Of a DNA stretch of 46,130 bases, positions 14,439 through 21,343 are shown piece after piece. Position 1 is the stretch's first letter, and each line of letters begins with the position of its first letter. The notes beneath the pieces were generated by a model. It searched no databases. It saw nothing but the letters and a program-made list of their open reading frames with translations, and was not told the DNA's origin. This stretch comes from Bacillota bacterium (lineage in GTDB: Bacteria; Bacillota; DTU065): contig JAHDNZ010000039.1 of NCBI GenBank assembly GCA_018435125.1, positions 1 to 46,130 of the forward strand. Direction: 5' to 3'. A program made the translations under genes and the position numbers.

Positions 14439-16139
14439 TTAACCCACAACATTTTTTATTATCTCAAGAATGAACTCAGGCAGTTTAATCTCTTCCTTAT
14501 TAGATTGCGGAGACAGAATAGTCTTTATAGTTAAAAAGATAGACTTACAAAAACTAATTAGGGGTTGATGAAACACTAAAGGTTCAAGTTCCGCTACCAC
14601 AATTTTATCCCAATAACCAGCATAGAGCTGATCTTTATACGGAACATACTCTCTACTGGAAAAATGAGTAGGATGGAAACTCGCTAGAAAAGTCGTACCG
14701 GTTTTTTCTCGAGAAAAATCGTCGATAGCACCGAAAGCCTTGGAAATAACAGCCTTTTTTTCAGGATTGTCGGCAAAAACACCTTGATTTAAACTCTCTA
14801 CTGCGAGTTCCGCGCAGAGCTCAGGTTCAAGCACATCTCTATTATCAGGCATAAAAGCTTCCCAGAGTAATGCATTGTGTATATAGCCGTTTTTAAGGGT
14901 AGAGATATAACCATAAATTCCATAGTAGCCTTCAATTAAGGACCAATCCAGAGCTGCCTCGATAAATCGGCCTTTTTCTTCTCTGGAACCATACTTTGCT
15001 ACACACTTCCACAATGGCCAAAACAGCTGATACTTTTCTTCTCTTTGGATTTCAATTAGCTCATTGATTAGTTCCTGCATTAAAACAAGAGCATAAAAGG
15101 CTTTGGTACCGGCTTCACCTGTTGCTAAATAATTATCCCGCCAATTTAGATAGTCTTGAAATGAACTGGTACTGTTTTGATTAGCAATCTCTTTGATCTT
15201 TCGTATTACTTTTACTACATCCGGTTTTGCGTTAGATGGAATTGTTTGCCTAGCTAAATAGATAAAATCGCTATGGCCAGCCAGATTAATATCACTTGCA
15301 TTTTGGGAGTTAAAACCTGCGTAATAAAACCAGGAATCAGGACTAGTCACACTAATAAGATCAGCATTTGTTTTCTCTTTTGCACCTAAGTCTGATAAAG
15401 AATAACCTGTAAAATAGCTTCTGTTAAATCTAATACCGGTATTAAAAAGTTGATCTCCATGCAAAAGACCGACTTTTGTATGGACAAAACCAAAACGATC
15501 ATATACCACCGGAAGCTCATCTACAGTGAGCTTTTTGTCTTTAATAGCTAAATAGAAATTGCTCTTTTCATCTTTTTTAAGTTCAATGCCATTGGGCTCT
15601 ACTAGTAGAGTCTTTAAATCCTCTTTTTTTGTGGTCATAAAAGGCTTTAATAACGGCCATTCTTTTTCTAAAAACCTTCTCAATCTTAAGCCCTGGAATA
15701 TCTTGACACCCGATTCATGTAAATCGGAAAAGAGGTATTCCGATGCTATCCCAGATAAAAGATCTGAATTTACCATTACAAAACCCATTGGTGAGTAGAT
15801 CTCTTTTATTTGTTCTATTGGATAGAACCATGTAAGATCAAAAACCAAATGTTTTTCGGTAACCTCTAGTAAATCGAGGCTAATAGCTTTTTTTATTTCT
15901 GCCTCAATGCTAATAAGGTTATTAAACCTTCTTGTCCAAGTAGAAGCAATCATTAAAAAACTCGTTGCTTGTTCAAGGGAGACCCTCTCTTGATTAAGCC
16001 AGTAATAATCTTCAGCTGAAAAGGCGAATTTATTAGCAATTGCAGCTAAATCACTATCCAAACAGGTTTTTGTAAAGCAATTATTATCCCTGTCATAGGT
16101 GAAAGTTATTTTGGTTAAATTCGCTTCTAAAACACTCAT
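14439..16139 (-). CDS. 566-residue protein of unknown function
   Basis: I do not recognise this protein. It has no signal peptide and no membrane segment, so it is probably cytoplasmic. It is mixed alpha/beta. The N-terminal 60 residues (KITFTYDRDNNCFTKTC, AEDYYWLNQE) may be a small separate domain. The middle holds Trp-, Tyr- and Phe-rich strands around residues 205-310. The C-terminal 200 residues are helical, with paired helices (ALVLMQELINELIEIQREE, KGRFIEAALDWSLIEGYYG) suggesting a repeat-type scaffold. The start is ATG about ten bases after GGGGGTGA. It follows a four-helix membrane protein by 53 bases, probably in one operon. Confidence 0.7.
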   Translation of the reverse strand: MSVLEANLTKITFTYDRDNNCFTKTCLDSDLAAIANKFAFSAEDYYWLNQERVSLEQATSFLMIASTWTRRFNNLISIEAEIKKAISLDLLEVTEKHLVFDLTWFYPIEQIKEIYSPMGFVMVNSDLLSGIASEYLFSDLHESGVKIFQGLRLRRFLEKEWPLLKPFMTTKKEDLKTLLVEPNGIELKKDEKSNFYLAIKDKKLTVDELPVVYDRFGFVHTKVGLLHGDQLFNTGIRFNRSYFTGYSLSDLGAKEKTNADLISVTSPDSWFYYAGFNSQNASDINLAGHSDFIYLARQTIPSNAKPDVVKVIRKIKEIANQNSTSSFQDYLNWRDNYLATGEAGTKAFYALVLMQELINELIEIQREEKYQLFWPLWKCVAKYGSREEKGRFIEAALDWSLIEGYYGIYGYISTLKNGYIHNALLWEAFMPDNRDVLEPELCAELAVESLNQGVFADNPEKKAVISKAFGAIDDFSREKTGTTFLASFHPTHFSSREYVPYKDQLYAGYWDKIVVAELEPLVFHQPLISFCKSIFLTIKTILSPQSNKEEIKLPEFILEIIKNVVG

Positions 16140-16176
16140 CTACAAAATTCACCCCCAGCTGCTAATCGAAAACAGA

Positions 16177-16213
16177 AAGCGGGTTAACCCACTTAGAGGT
16201 TTTTAACCCGCTT
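16177..16213 (-). terminator. Hairpin at the end of the membrane-protein gene
   Basis: AAGCGGGTTAA (16177-16187) pairs perfectly with TTAACCCGCTT (16203-16213). The stop of the minus-strand gene (16193) lies in the loop. The minus-strand tail TCTGTTTTCG is only partly T-rich, so it may be a weak terminator before the 566-residue gene. Confidence 0.5.
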
Positions 16214-16723
16214 AGCTTTTTTGATTTTATACAAAAAAGTATTTCTAATTGTCTCGCAAAGGAAACTGTATATGGCAGTACAAATCAAGGTAGCTATAAT
16301 AGTAATCAACCAAATTAAAAGCGAAGACCTAGTATCGGTGTTATATTTTTGCAACCAAAATAGAATTCCTGTACCAAATGAAATAGCGATTATGGCATTA
16401 GCATAGCTATAGGCTAATTCGATATTAAGTATTTTCAACGTAGCACTGCCAACCGCTTCTCGCACCAAATTTAGTATTCCTGAGACTAAGGTAAGAATAA
16501 TAAACTTAAACACTAGATCAGCTATTAGCTCACTGTTTTTTACCTTAGGAATCATTCCCAAAGATCCCCAAATAAACTCTCTATAAGCATAGGCTCCTAA
16601 GAGATATATTAAAAATATTGCTGCAAATAATAAAGCTACTATAGCTCCTGTAGCAAATGATAACCACAGTTTTTTGAGCAGAGGATATTCCAACCATTTC
16701 TCCTTAATATCAACCCGAGACAT
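16193..16723 (-). CDS. Four-helix membrane protein of unknown function
   Basis: About 176 residues from ATG 16723, chosen because GGGGGTGG stands six bases ahead. An in-frame upstream ATG at 16756 lacks a ribosome site. Four hydrophobic segments can be seen: FATGAIVALLFAAIFLIYLL, LVFKFIILTLVSGILNLV, YANAIIAISFGTGILFWL and LLIWLITIIATLICTAIYSF. A basic C-terminus (KIKKAKRVKNL) fits a cytoplasmic end. No family is recognised. It is co-directional with all genes between 13508 and 21343. Confidence 0.65.
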   Translation of the reverse strand: MSRVDIKEKWLEYPLLKKLWLSFATGAIVALLFAAIFLIYLLGAYAYREFIWGSLGMIPKVKNSELIADLVFKFIILTLVSGILNLVREAVGSATLKILNIELAYSYANAIIAISFGTGILFWLQKYNTDTRSSLLIWLITIIATLICTAIYSFLCETIRNTFLYKIKKAKRVKNL

Positions 16724-16911
16724 AGCCTTCCACCCCCGGTTGCCTTTCCCTAACACATTTTTAGTTAAAATTTACTCTGGTAAATGTCTCTGTTAATATT
16801 TCTCGTCATCTATTTTATTTCCTCTTATTTGGTCTTGAATAATCTATAATAGTCTACTCCTATTCAATCTTATTAACAAAAATAATCTTCCAAACACTGA
16901 AAGGCTTTTAG

Positions 16912-17733
16912 TTAATATGAAAAGAGGCTGAGTTCGGTAATCTTAGCAGCTAGGAAACTAGACATTATTCCAAAACCACCATCATAAACAGCACCCTCAC
17001 TCAAATCCTGGGCTTCCATGATTTTTTTATAACCATTGTCGCTGGTAGCTCTAAAATAGATAACTATTTTTTCTTCCTTGGCAAAGATTACAGTCTCATA
17101 CTCAACACCTGCTTTAGCTCCCGGTGCAATAAACATTTCTTTGGGTTCAAGGATATTAAACTGTTTATCCCAGTTACCTTCAAATCTTGTAAAATAGCTT
17201 AAGGCACCAGAGATACCGGGAAAACTAAGGCAATAGCTATGAAAGCCTGGCTCGGTCAAACGGAAAAAGAAACGTAGGTAGTTGTAAAGTTTAGCCTTAT
17301 CCAAACTAAATTTAGCCCGAAATACAAAATTAGCAAAACTATCATCATAAAAAAGCTGCGTCTCATAGCCTTCTTTGACCAGAATCTCGTTTTTGTTAAT
17401 TTCCCAAATATCTTCCCCTTGAATTGTAAAATCATCCTTGTTATAAGGAGCTCCAAAATAGAGTTTGTTCTTAAATTTCATCTGCTCATCAATTGGCAAT
17501 TCAGCACTTAATGCTAACCAGTTTACAGTCGCTACCTTTTTGTCTTGAGGGACATCTAAGACTACAACACCATTGGCATCGGCTTCAAATACATTATTAG
17601 CGATTTGAACTTTAGCAAATGGTGCTCTATTGCCGTCTGGAAGTAATATCTGAGCAGTAAGAGTCGTAGCTTGAAGGTTAACAGCCACCAACACCAAAAC
17701 CATAACCACGAAAAATCCCAATCTCTTTGTCAT
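16912..17733 (-). CDS. Secreted two-domain beta-sandwich protein
   Basis: A 273-residue exported protein. Signal peptide: MTKRLGFFVVMVLVLVAVN, cleavage near LQA. Residues about 25-75 look like a carboxypeptidase-regulatory-type beta-sandwich (TAQILLPDGNRAPFAKVQI, DANGVVVLDVP). Residues about 110-273 look like a LamG/DUF1080 concanavalin-type domain (FANFVFRAKFSLDKAK, LRFFFRLTEPGFHSYCLSF, ALSYFTRFEGNWD, GAVYDGGFGIMSS). The second domain parallels the N-terminal domain of the DUF4855 protein, with LR-x-FR, Y-C-L and a Gly-x-Trp-Asp in the same order. It probably binds glycan at the surface. The start is ATG with GGAGGAGAG upstream. Confidence 0.75.
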   Translation of the reverse strand: MTKRLGFFVVMVLVLVAVNLQATTLTAQILLPDGNRAPFAKVQIANNVFEADANGVVVLDVPQDKKVATVNWLALSAELPIDEQMKFKNKLYFGAPYNKDDFTIQGEDIWEINKNEILVKEGYETQLFYDDSFANFVFRAKFSLDKAKLYNYLRFFFRLTEPGFHSYCLSFPGISGALSYFTRFEGNWDKQFNILEPKEMFIAPGAKAGVEYETVIFAKEEKIVIYFRATSDNGYKKIMEAQDLSEGAVYDGGFGIMSSFLAAKITELSLFSY

Positions 17734-17755
17734 CCTGTCTCTCCTCCTTTTTTGG

Positions 17756-17824
17756 GTAAACGCTTAACTATTATCATACTTTCTATTCTCTTTTTCTAAA
17801 CCATTTCCTTCTATGCCATTTCCT
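17756..17824 (-). promoter_or_regulatory. Candidate promoter region with cre-like site and tandem repeat
   Basis: Upstream of the gene at 16912-17733 lie a -10-like TATGAT (opposite 17774-17779) and a cre-like core TAAGCGTTTAC (opposite 17756-17766). The core fits the CcpA consensus in the middle but not at its ends. Two tandem 15-mers occur at 17795-17809 and 17810-17824, differing at two positions. The placement of the repressor-like core just downstream of the -10 box would fit catabolite repression. Confidence 0.3.
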
Positions 17825-17848
17825 GCCAAATGACCTGATGAGAAAAAG

Positions 17849-18625
17849 TTATGGCAAAAGCAAATTTCCCTCAATAGCGGAGCAGATAGTTTTTATAGGA
17901 GCTCTTGCAAAAACAGAGACATTCCCTTTAATCTCTTTTATCTCAGCCAAACCACCTTGTTGGGCCGAGATAGTTACATCACCTACAATATTTTCCATTT
18001 TTAAATCTAAAAGAGTATCACTATCTATAACTACAAACCCTGCAACATTTTTTACTACCATTGTTCCACCAAGATCACTAATCCAAATATCACCCAATAT
18101 GTCTTTTAGTACTAAGTTACCTCCGTTATCACGTATTCTAACCATCCCGTTAACAGCCAAAAGGGTGGTTTGATTTCCATAGGTTTTAATATCCAAGCCA
18201 GCTATTTGAGAAACAAAAACATCTTTTTCTGCTTGGCAGATAACTAAAGCCATATGTTCTGGCATTTCGATATTGATCTCTAGGCCGTTAGCATTTTGTT
18301 CTAGCAAAGACCAGTCAATCTCAAGCCATAGTTCATCACTTAAAATTTCATAGACTATCTCTAGGTTAGCTATGCCTTTAGGAGATCTAGTAAGCAGTTT
18401 TACGATAACAGTCTCTAAGTCGTTTTTTCCTTTTATCGTAAGTGGAAGTTTTATAGTATTGATTCTCAAGGTGATGCAATCCTTACTTTGAATCTCTTTT
18501 TGAATTATTGTTTGTAACTGATTGTCTGTGGGATTAACTTTAGCATCTACTGGACTTTCTTCAGCTATAGTAGTTATTGTAGTTAATAATACAACTACAA
18601 TAAATATCCATCTTACTTTTTTCAT
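17849..18625 (-). CDS. Secreted DUF4097/GIN-like beta-solenoid protein
   Basis: A 258-residue protein with an N-terminal signal peptide (MKKVRWIFIVVVLLTTITTI, cleavage near AEE). The C-terminal half, about 120-258, consists of short repeating strands with Val, Ile and Gly at turns (MVRIRDNGGNLVLKDILGDI, GTMVVKNVAGFVVIDSD, MENIVGDVTISAQQGGLAEI). This is the pattern of DUF4097 and putative adhesin-head proteins that fold as a right-handed beta-helix. No membrane or wall anchor follows, so the protein is presumably released or held by partners. It starts 34 bases behind the radical SAM gene, so it probably shares its transcript. Function unknown. Confidence 0.7.
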   Translation of the reverse strand: MKKVRWIFIVVVLLTTITTIAEESPVDAKVNPTDNQLQTIIQKEIQSKDCITLRINTIKLPLTIKGKNDLETVIVKLLTRSPKGIANLEIVYEILSDELWLEIDWSLLEQNANGLEINIEMPEHMALVICQAEKDVFVSQIAGLDIKTYGNQTTLLAVNGMVRIRDNGGNLVLKDILGDIWISDLGGTMVVKNVAGFVVIDSDTLLDLKMENIVGDVTISAQQGGLAEIKEIKGNVSVFARAPIKTICSAIEGNLLLP

Positions 18626-18659: not shown

Positions 18660-19919
18660 TTACAAAACTGCTCGCTCTTCATATTCAAGGGGACAAGAAC
18701 CGCCACAGGCCATAAGATGAGTACAACCTTGGCAGGTTTTATCTAGCCATTTCCTCTCACGTAAATACATTGCTAAAGGATGATTCCAAGCATCCTTTAA
18801 CGAATCGGTTTTTATATTACCTAAGCCGTCAAAATAAGATTGACAAGGAATAATTCTTCCGTCTGGTTCAATAGCCAAAACTGTTTGCGCTGCTGCACAG
18901 CGTTTTGTTCCAAAGCCTTCCTGTAAAGGGTCGAAAGCTAGATAGCAAGTTGGTGTAAACCAAATTAACTCAGCCCTAGAAATGGCACAGCTTTTCTTAG
19001 CATGATTTAGAATTAGTTTCAATCTTGAAGCTGGGAGACCTTCTTTGTTTTTACCTCTTTGAGAACGAATCAGGCCATTTAAGCCTATCCTACTTACACC
19101 AAGCTGAAGTAAAAAATCTAAAGTATCAGTTATCTCTTTTTCATTAAGACTTGTCATGGTAGTGTTAGTAGTTACTCTAAGACTTGATGCCAGCGCATTT
19201 TTTAGGCCGGCTAGAGTTTGCTCAAACGCACCTTCTATACCGACTATTCTATCATGAACCTCTTTGAGATGAGACTCAATTGTTATCTGTACATAATCCA
19301 AGCCGGATTCCACTAGTTTTGTCACTTTCTCGGAGGTTAAAAGCCTGCCATTTGTAATCAGACCGGTAATCATTCCTAGTCCTTTAGCGTATTGTATTAG
19401 TTCAAGTAAATCAGCCCTAAGCAAAGACTCCCCCCCGGTAAAAGCCACCTGAGGCACTCCAAACTGCCATAATTTGTCAAGAGCATTTTGCCATTCTAAG
19501 GTAGTAAGTTCCTCGGTTTTATGACTCCCACCTGCATAGCAATGAAAGCAGTCGTTATTGCAAATATAAGTCAAAGCTAAATCCACCCTTAGGGGAGCTT
19601 GAAAACATCTCTCTCCTACTTGGATGTTTATACCCGAACCTGCACAACAGCCTTTAGCAGCTGTGACTAAACTCCTCTTAAGCTTTAACCAGTCTTTTTT
19701 TGCTTTTATGGGATTAACTCCATATCTTAACATCGACCAGACGGTTTTGCTATCATTTGCACCGCTTTTTAAAAATAAAGCTACATAGCGATAACCGGCT
19801 TTATTTAATTCTATTACCTTACTTCCATTAATAATAAGAACTCCTCCGTCGCTTTCACGGCGGAGGTGCCAATTGTCACCTTCAACTTCATAAAAAACCA
19901 AACTGTTATTTCTATTCAT
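18660..19919 (-). CDS. Radical SAM/SPASM enzyme with PqqD-like N-terminal domain
   Basis: An iron-sulfur enzyme of the peptide- and protein-modifying radical SAM/SPASM class. Residues below are numbered from the upstream in-frame ATG (19928). About 10-90 form a PqqD-like winged domain of the kind that recognises RiPP leader peptides (GVLIINGSKVIELNKAGYRY, then a helical segment). The SAM cluster motif is C123-x3-C127-x2-C130 (YICNNDCFHCYAGG), with the SAM-binding strand FTGGESLL at 163-170. The C-terminal SPASM region has the expected cysteines (KRCAAAQ, IIPCQSYFDGLGNI, CQGCTHLMACGGSCPLEYEE) for auxiliary clusters. The preferred start is ATG 19919, one base overlapping the upstream stop (TGATG) with GGGGGA eight bases ahead, so translation is coupled to the Cys-Ala-tailed membrane protein. 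That protein is its likely substrate. The enzyme class is firm; the substrate is inferred. Confidence 0.93.
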   Translation of the reverse strand: MNRNNSLVFYEVEGDNWHLRRESDGGVLIINGSKVIELNKAGYRYVALFLKSGANDSKTVWSMLRYGVNPIKAKKDWLKLKRSLVTAAKGCCAGSGINIQVGERCFQAPLRVDLALTYICNNDCFHCYAGGSHKTEELTTLEWQNALDKLWQFGVPQVAFTGGESLLRADLLELIQYAKGLGMITGLITNGRLLTSEKVTKLVESGLDYVQITIESHLKEVHDRIVGIEGAFEQTLAGLKNALASSLRVTTNTTMTSLNEKEITDTLDFLLQLGVSRIGLNGLIRSQRGKNKEGLPASRLKLILNHAKKSCAISRAELIWFTPTCYLAFDPLQEGFGTKRCAAAQTVLAIEPDGRIIPCQSYFDGLGNIKTDSLKDAWNHPLAMYLRERKWLDKTCQGCTHLMACGGSCPLEYEERAVL

Positions 19920-21343
19920 CAAGTGCATCCCCCACTACTGGCACAGGCACAGGCACAGGCGCAAGCACAACTACTTCCACCAGTTTTGCCTCCTCCGGCA
20001 GCTGTGGTAAAAGTGTTGTTAAAAGTGGCCTGTCTTTGTTTTTCCTGGTTAGAATTGAGAAAACTCAGATAAAACAATGGTAGATAACCATGCAGATATC
20101 CCGGTTCATAACTTACATCGGTTATTGGTTTATCTGGTATCTTGCGATCTAAATAATCGTTAAGAACCTGCCACCTGATGGCATCTTTTTGTTCTGCTAG
20201 TTCAGGACTTTTTAATAAAGTAGTGTAATAAGCTTTTGTCTGGGCTCCACAATAACCACCCAGGAGTTCCTTTAACTTTTGCACCATTTTTTGATATAGT
20301 TCAGGCCATTTTTCTTCTTTCAATTCCACATTTTCATCAATGCCATCTATAAAAAGCTCTTCGTACCAGGTAACTCGTTCTAATGAAGGTACTTTAACTA
20401 ACTTATTTTCACTGGTCATTTTAACAATCTTTTTGTCCATAAGACCCATAAGGATAAGCTTGATAAGCAGATCCCCAGGCACATTAAAAAACAAAGCTGC
20501 TTCTACGGGATCAAAAGTTGTACAGGCCTCTTTGCCGGTTATATAGGCTGCTGGAGTCATGTACCTGGCTTGTTTATAAGACCAGGTAATTATTAGAGCC
20601 AAAATAAGGATAACTCCGCCTACAACCATAGCTATTATACCTTTTTGAGTGGTACTAAGCCAGTTTTTTTGCGGTTTAAAGCTTTCATTAAAATAACCTC
20701 TGGGCAATTGTAACGCATGAGCTAGTTTGGTATTTTTAGCTACGTTGTGATATTTAAAAACCGCCACCGACATATTATTATACCGTTGTATAGAATCTGG
20801 TTCACCCTTAAGGTAACCGATTTTATATGGATCGAGCTTGGGAGCAAATCTAAACTCAAGTGTTAATTCTTTCACTTGACTCTTTTCCCACCAGGCTGGA
20901 ATATAAGAAAGTGAAACTTTTTGGTCTTTCAATTCTTTATCCGGTTGCTGTTTATCAAACCAGTAGATCAAATCTGGTATCTCCGCATAAAAATGGATCA
21001 CTAGATTTTCGCCAGGAAGAATAGCTGGAAAATCCTTGAAAATAACTTGTTGAATGTCATCTCCTTTTTTTACCTTAAAGTCCAAAGAAGAATAAACACC
21101 GTCTTTGAGATACTTAGCATAAGTTACAGTTGTCCCCTTAGTTGGCAAACCAACCCAGATCTCAGTACCATTTTCAGTAGATTCTGGCAATACCTTAAAA
21201 GAAAACTCTTTATCAAGTAGGATCTTACCTTGAGTGCTTACCTCTAATATTTCGTTTTGCCATTCTATTTCATAGTAAAAAGAGGCTAAGGCAGTTGTGA
21301 CAAAAAACAAAAAAACAACTGCGGCAAGTAATGGTTTTTTCAT
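19919..21343 (-). CDS. DUF2207-like membrane protein with C-terminal (Cys-Ala)5 tail
   Basis: A 474-residue protein. Signal peptide: MKKPLLAAVVFLFFVTTALA. An extracellular beta-sandwich (about 22-215), a single membrane helix (236-254, AMVVGGVILILALIITW) and a cytoplasmic region follow. The cytoplasmic part begins with the DUF2207-like helical segment FDPVEAALFFNVPGDLLIK, then GLMDKKIVKM. After a flexible stretch and the Gly-rich linker GGGKTGG, the protein ends SSCACACACACASSGGCT, with cysteines at 459, 461, 463, 465, 467 and 473. By this topology the tail is cytoplasmic, within reach of the radical SAM enzyme encoded next in a one-base overlap. The tail could be a crosslinked or metal-binding element. 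The DUF2207 assignment is by architecture and weak motif match. The start is ATG after GGGGAGGG. Confidence 0.85.
   Translation of the reverse strand: MKKPLLAAVVFLFFVTTALASFYYEIEWQNEILEVSTQGKILLDKEFSFKVLPESTENGTEIWVGLPTKGTTVTYAKYLKDGVYSSLDFKVKKGDDIQQVIFKDFPAILPGENLVIHFYAEIPDLIYWFDKQQPDKELKDQKVSLSYIPAWWEKSQVKELTLEFRFAPKLDPYKIGYLKGEPDSIQRYNNMSVAVFKYHNVAKNTKLAHALQLPRGYFNESFKPQKNWLSTTQKGIIAMVVGGVILILALIITWSYKQARYMTPAAYITGKEACTTFDPVEAALFFNVPGDLLIKLILMGLMDKKIVKMTSENKLVKVPSLERVTWYEELFIDGIDENVELKEEKWPELYQKMVQKLKELLGGYCGAQTKAYYTTLLKSPELAEQKDAIRWQVLNDYLDRKIPDKPITDVSYEPGYLHGYLPLFYLSFLNSNQEKQRQATFNNTFTTAAGGGKTGGSSCACACACACASSGGCT
19940..19969 (-). repeat. Five Cys-Ala codon pairs encoding the protein tail
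   Basis: Thirty bases encode five consecutive Cys-Ala pairs. The codons vary (TGT/TGC, GCT/GCC), with three identical TGTGCC units in the middle. A 6-bp unit like this can expand or contract by slippage without losing the frame, so tail length may vary among strains. Confidence 0.85.

Follow-up and report, generated by a model that had tools for sequence, protein, structure and literature searches.

Gene pair and predicted products

The window, i.e. the whole 46,130 nucleotide stretch of DNA analyzed here, carries two adjacent genes on its minus strand. The first (19919..21343) encodes a single-pass membrane protein of 474 residues, the presumed substrate, as read from the open reading frame and five homologues. 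The second (18660..19919; Pfam PF04055 and PF13186; structure model md5c99044897f) encodes a radical SAM/SPASM enzyme of 419 residues that is presumed to modify the tail of the first. The ATG of the enzyme gene at 19919, which is Met4 of its open reading frame, shares its A with the stop codon of the membrane protein gene (TGATG). An alternative in-frame ATG at 19928, 9 bases upstream, would give a 10-base overlap; family alignments favor the inner start (19919).

Translation of the membrane protein gene gives the C-terminus GGSSCACACACACASSGGCT. The final residues of this 474-residue reading frame (19919-21343, minus strand) are TTAAGGGKTGGSSCACACACACASSGGCT before the stop, also written FTTAAGGGKTGGSSCACACACACASSGGCT before the stop. 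The conserved tail SSCACACACACASSGGCT, residues 457-474, is encoded at 19922..19975 (minus strand), as delimited by conservation and codon analysis. It contains exactly five Cys-Ala units (19940..19969, minus strand), after which SSGGCT follows, with the last Cys at residue 473 and Thr as the last residue. The initial annotation had read this tail correctly up to (CA)5S, while its C-terminus, given with a final Cys, is replaced by SSGGCT ending in Thr; the one-base TGATG overlap it reported stands, provided that the enzyme starts at Met4 (19919).

The membrane protein consists of a signal peptide (residues 1-20), a beta-rich ectodomain (about 21-228) that contains no Cys, a transmembrane helix (about 231-252), a cytosolic helical domain (about 255-445) and the tail. 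The transmembrane helix (residues 231-252; 20588..20653, minus strand) was located by hydropathy and by an AlphaFold helix at 231-255, and is the sole strong hydrophobic segment besides the signal peptide; the positive-inside charge around it is weak. The predicted topology would place the tail in the cytosol, in agreement with the cytoplasmic location first proposed. In its predicted fold the ectodomain is similar to ribophorin I and to the N-terminal domain of M1 aminopeptidases. Beyond the transmembrane helix the AlphaFold model is poor (pLDDT mostly 25-60), so that no conclusion on the shape of the tail is drawn from it; the very low-confidence prediction of the tail fits, as expected, a disordered or modified segment. 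The designation ‘DUF2207-like’ holds for the domain layout and fails for the sequence. The DUF2207 profile (PF09972) has no match at E<=10 in the genome of the window, and a profile comparison of the membrane protein with a true DUF2207 protein was not significant; membership in DUF2207 was rejected, as only the architecture is alike. Searches of NCBIfam and Pfam gave no name for any of the membrane proteins.

Both Pfam domains of the enzyme, Radical_SAM (PF04055, E=4e-25) and SPASM (PF13186, E=8e-10), score above the gathering threshold, which confirms the class to which the neighboring gene had been assigned. The radical SAM motif CxxxCxxC (C120/124/127) is invariant in an alignment of ten enzymes of families I and II, the groups of loci described below. 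The SPASM Cys residues C341, C359, C396, C399, C405 and C409 are encoded at 18693..18899 (minus strand) in the pattern C341-x12-G-x4-C359 and C396xxC399x5C405x3C409, with C325 upstream of this set and, in the window enzyme, no Cys beyond C409; they are invariant among the same ten enzymes save for C396 (9/10). In the enzyme of one family II genome (G154, L049:2032-3498) Phe occupies the counterpart of C396, and the partner protein keeps the full tail. Full ligation of two 4Fe-4S clusters takes eight Cys; the seven conserved C-terminal Cys outside the SAM motif (C396 in 9/10) are one short of this number. By analogy to CteB, an open cluster site accepting a substrate Cys is possible. In CteB such a site takes a Cys of the substrate (PMC6231123).

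The AlphaFold model of the enzyme (pTM 0.80) shows an N-terminal domain, then the radical SAM barrel, then the SPASM part. Its best full-length Foldseek matches are SkfB and SuiB, and the top structures by sequence profile are SkfB, PqqE, BlsE and SuiB. SkfB and SuiB both carry an RRE (PMC6231123). In the model, the N-terminal domain (residues about 1-90; 19650..19919, minus strand; AlphaFold secondary structure) consists of four strands and then three helices, arranged as in a PqqD-like RiPP recognition element (RRE). It matched no Pfam family and gave no significant sequence match to PqqD/RRE, so that its status as an RRE rests on the predicted fold. The best PDB sequence match of the family I/II domain was the lasso-peptide RRE TfuB1, at E=0.14 only, and that of family III matched PqqD at E=7e-4, below the cut-off. 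An hhalign comparison of the isolated domains of families I/II and III was not significant, and the full enzymes of these families align from residue 25 on, the N-terminal domain part included. All curated NCBIfam maturase models scored far below their cut-offs against the enzyme; the nearest NCBIfam models by score were those of the tetrapyrrole enzymes NirJ and AhbC/D, and also PqqE, all far below cut-off as well. TIGR04463 (rSAM_vs_C_rich), tried for its fitting name, reached 52 bits against a cut-off of 525. The best match to TIGR04463 in the genome of the window is another radical SAM gene (L078, G000:C53:10829-11926), at 86 bits, also below the cut-off.

Conservation of the tail and distribution of the pair

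About 1e-10 runs of (CA)5 are expected per genome from the composition of the window (Cys 0.95%, Ala 7.5%). Six Cys lie in the last 20 residues of the membrane protein; the next-highest reading frame of the window in this respect is the enzyme itself, with two.

The group of the window, family I, comprises five loci from at least three taxonomic families. The tail is identical in 5/5, (Cys-Ala)5..GGCT, all homologues ending in CACACACACA[SS/GG]GGCT, and the enzyme is the next gene in every one. The homologues on JAQVYS010000015.1, LFSI01000049.1 (Clostridia bacterium DTU065), DIRN01000094.1 (UBA5435) and JAENYK010000003.1 are 55, 53, 38 and 45% identical overall to the membrane protein of the window. 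A search among 100 relatives gave homologues in three genomes, and a search of the GTDB species collection with a four-sequence alignment as the query gave the same three and a fourth, from a Halothermothrix metagenome bin; a contig scan with the window protein as single query found nothing. Two sister genomes from the taxonomic family of the window (G002 and G003, drafts that are 85 and 92% complete) lack both genes. A distant homologue of the family I ectodomain in a further genome (G387, L015:3-776, minus strand) is cut by the contig end, so that its tail and neighbor lie beyond the contig; no enzyme of the subfamily was found in that genome.

Of the 16 alignment columns that begin with the first Cys, 14 are invariant among the five family I homologues, versus 96 of 487 elsewhere, an excess with a hypergeometric P of about 2e-8. 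No other part of the membrane protein is as conserved as the tail in this alignment. Among the (CA)5 codons of family I, third positions vary in 8/10 and positions 1-2 at 0/20; the 27 tail codons of family II, compared across eight genomes, vary at 27/27 third positions and at 3/54 of positions 1-2. With third positions free and the first two fixed or nearly so, purifying selection acts on the residues of the tail and not on a DNA repeat, and a DNA-repeat artefact as the source of (CA)5 is ruled out. Several other matches to TGYGCN in the phylum (in G106 and G148, and some in G124, G204, G384 and G179) were not considered further, as they have the look of plain repeats or of chance frames. Those at G106:C3:65972-66048 and G148:C115:1720-1754 are long perfect TGTGCT or TGCGCC repeats, poly Cys-Ala in one frame, and look like simple repeats without relation to the enzyme.

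Family II was recognized both by a DNA pattern of four Cys-Ala units and by the enzyme profile, each over 398 genomes of the phylum. It is a sister enzyme group from 12 genomes (genome families f49 and f116), in which the gene order is reversed, the enzyme preceding the membrane protein. Its tail reads FGGRxxGCxCVSCACACVSCACACACAGG[GR]GAGC[AT][QR]KF, and its ectodomain is homologous to that of family I (E=4e-8). The tail was readable in 10 of the 12 enzyme-bearing genomes and present in all ten, one of them stopping at the contig end after CVSCACACVSCACAC; the two left out of the count are G344, where the spot is masked, and G482, where it is off the contig. Two f49 genomes without the enzyme (G204 and G124) lack the membrane protein too. 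The 3' neighbors of the family II membrane protein gene encode a lipoprotein-like protein and then LemA (PF04011, E=6e-17). The former, which has no Pfam match, looks by its motif like a TPM-domain protein. In three family II genomes (G052, G384 and G090) the tail protein runs on through a second hydrophobic segment into a TPM-like domain (L048:4364-6439, L050:873-2687 and L072:2943-4784, minus strands). The Cys stretch of these fusions lies between two hydrophobic segments and thus fits a cytosolic loop.

The enzyme profile gave 14 family I/II hits above 620 bits over the 398 genomes, followed by a gap to 270 bits. Family III (G012, G097 and G282) lies at 258-270 bits. Here the enzyme gene overlaps the membrane protein gene by ATGA, and the membrane protein ends in [AV]CHSACHDA(CHSA)nCVSGGAR. 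An hhalign comparison shows homology between its cytosolic domain and the one of family I (E=2e-9). No further members were found among 150 relatives of G282. G012 also encodes a genuine DUF2207 protein beside LemA, with a Gly-rich, Cys-free tail, and the 3.6 kb stretch that was read there is free of radical SAM genes; the Cys repeat thus tracks the enzyme and not the type of protein. The three family III loci (L073-L075) share a third gene for a membrane protein of about 330 residues, which overlaps or abuts the enzyme gene (e.g., L074:2341-3363, minus strand) and has no Pfam or convincing NCBIfam match.

Together, the co-occurrence of a Cys-repeat tail with this SPASM subfamily, which the initial annotation had proposed as a check, is seen in 20 loci of three related groups. 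Relatives that keep the enzyme and lose the tail, named in the initial annotation as counter-evidence, were looked for and none was found; the tail is readable in 18 of the 20 loci and present in all 18. Four sister genomes (G002, G003, G204 and G124) jointly lack both genes. The genomes searched were a sample of one phylum plus those of a single GTDB scan, and several loci are contig fragments; given this sampling, the family is probably larger than the loci found.

Proposed maturation of the tail

The Cys repeat is fixed, a SPASM enzyme with an RRE-like domain is encoded beside it, each of the three enzyme groups goes with its own repeat type, and the two genes are absent together; on these grounds the tail is very probably the substrate of the enzyme. 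We consider it probable that the pair as a whole is a two-gene module in which the enzyme cross-links the Cys residues of the cytosolic tail as thioethers. Under this proposal, the membrane protein and the adjacent, translationally coupled RRE-radical SAM-SPASM enzyme would form a protein-maturation module. The enzyme would bind the membrane protein, probably via the RRE, at the cytosolic domain or at the linker preceding the tail. A 5'-deoxyadenosyl radical would abstract hydrogen from tail residues, with Ala the obvious candidate, and the Cys sulfurs would be joined to the radical-bearing residues as thioethers. The product, a rigid and cross-linked tail, would stay part of the membrane protein; the genes shared among the loci include neither a leader protease nor an exporter. 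Possible functions of the finished tail are a rigid anchor for LemA- or TPM-type partners, or a metal or redox site. This function and the thioether chemistry are the least certain parts of the proposal.

RRE-SPASM enzymes commonly cross-link Cys-rich targets through thioethers. Counting against such cross-linking here, known thioethers span more residues than the very close alternation of Cys and Ala would allow for. The repeat of family III has a period of four, so that one uniform linkage geometry is not guaranteed. Ala serves as the thioether acceptor in the Cys5-Ala12 linkage of ruminococcin C1, and the SPASM enzyme QhpD acts on a protein subunit, QhpC (PMC8172795); a Cys24-Ala31 bridge is also formed in an altered ruminococcin precursor (PMC6779426). 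A more specific form of the proposal, offered tentatively and doubtful in its detail, is a ladder of permanent radical-made cross-links with a geometry, closely spaced alternating Cys-Ala, that is not known from RiPPs, in which the tail would act as an anchor or a metal or redox site for DUF2207/LemA-type complexes. Cys-to-Ala thioethers at i,i+3, or linkage of Cys to the beta carbon of Ala to give lanthionines by a radical route, are examples of such geometries.

It is unlikely that the tail is modified without thioethers, for example by epimerization of Ala to give alternating L-Cys/D-Ala, or by oxidation or other alteration of Cys. SPASM and related enzymes are known for varied peptide reactions, one of the fold matches is the radical SAM epimerase EpeE, and a segment of alternating L and D residues would agree with the strict alternation in (CA)5. 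The residue that is constant through all three repeat types is Cys, however, the (CHSA)n and CVSC units do not alternate, and over its full length the enzyme matches SkfB and SuiB best in fold, not epimerases. The regular Cys-X-Cys repeats and the Cys/His repeat (CHSA)n also resemble metal ligands, so that the tail could be a metal- or cluster-binding or redox element as encoded, not cross-linked, with the enzyme acting on something bound there or helping to build the metal site. NCBI names another SPASM family found beside Cys-rich proteins rSAM_vs_C_rich, of which the enzyme here is not a member. An RRE-like domain is typical of enzymes with peptide substrates, and in all three groups, in either gene order, the enzyme adjoins a Cys-repeat partner; both points make a purely ligand-binding tail improbable.

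Mere operon linkage, with the enzyme maturing another, unseen target and the tail serving an unrelated purpose, would be in line with the three further genes that follow in the same order within the taxonomic family of the window. However, locus L013, a more distant member of family I, and families II and III retain the pair, in either order, without the downstream genes, and the four sister genomes lack both genes together, which makes this explanation very unlikely.

Known systems and flanking genes

The closest known systems are those of the sactipeptide maturases SkfB, CteB and AlbA, which by prediction share the RRE-radical SAM-Twitch/SPASM layout and have a Cys-rich partner encoded by a neighboring gene; both by sequence and by fold, the top structure match of the enzyme is SkfB. 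In those systems a leader-core peptide is the substrate. Here it would be a membrane protein of 474 residues that bears a signal peptide, the shared genes include neither an exporter nor a protease, and sactisynthase models score far below cut-off. The partner is not a short precursor peptide with a leader and a Cys-rich core, by which sactipeptide and ranthipeptide systems are recognized. The loci have neither a precursor peptide nor a protease or exporter in common, and the enzyme matches none of the curated maturase models; the pair is RiPP-maturase-like but not a RiPP system as defined.

QhpD, the maturase of the quinohemoprotein amine dehydrogenase gamma subunit, forms thioethers inside a retained protein subunit and not in a secreted peptide (PMC8172795). 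The likeness to QhpD is one of description: QhpC is small and soluble and belongs to a periplasmic enzyme, whereas the repeat described here is at the cytosolic end of a membrane protein. The His-Xaa-Ser (Hxs) system, in which radical SAM enzymes are paired with a repeat-bearing protein, is also comparable. It differs in its repeat, HxS and not CA, and in its enzyme set; HxsC models are among the weak NCBIfam matches of the enzyme, far below cut-off. Envelope proteins of the DUF2207/LemA/TPM type have a like architecture with a low-complexity, Gly-rich C-terminus, and family II adjoins LemA; in contrast, the window protein does not match the Pfam DUF2207 profile and the true DUF2207 protein of G012 has no Cys in its tail.

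The system is not named in the family libraries NCBIfam and Pfam. A literature search for the tail strings and for radical SAM with DUF2207 found neither the tail nor its pairing with the enzyme described; most subscription journals and all preprints lay outside its scope. Judged from sequence, the pair would combine a known enzyme class with a new kind of substrate; its result in the cell is probably a membrane protein with a permanently modified tail, of a kind apparently undescribed so far. Nearly all known radical SAM maturases of Cys-rich sequences act on small peptides that are secreted. If the proposal is true, an integral membrane protein would be stably modified after translation by such chemistry, in three related enzyme groups with three repeat types, and this would also offer a first functional lead on DUF2207/LemA-type envelope proteins. 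We know of no explained role for the low-complexity tails of these proteins. As a very simple and regular substrate, (CA)5 makes cross-link geometry and enzyme processivity directly testable.

Three genes lie 3' of the enzyme (14439-18625, minus strand), outside the core pair. They encode a secreted repeat protein (17849..18625, minus strand; 35% identical to its counterpart in locus L008 and absent from L013), a secreted protein of 273 residues (16912..17733, minus strand; 48% identical to its counterpart in L008) and a protein of 566 residues, none with a convincing Pfam match. Two sister genomes carry counterparts of all three genes in unchanged order (35-48% identity to L008).
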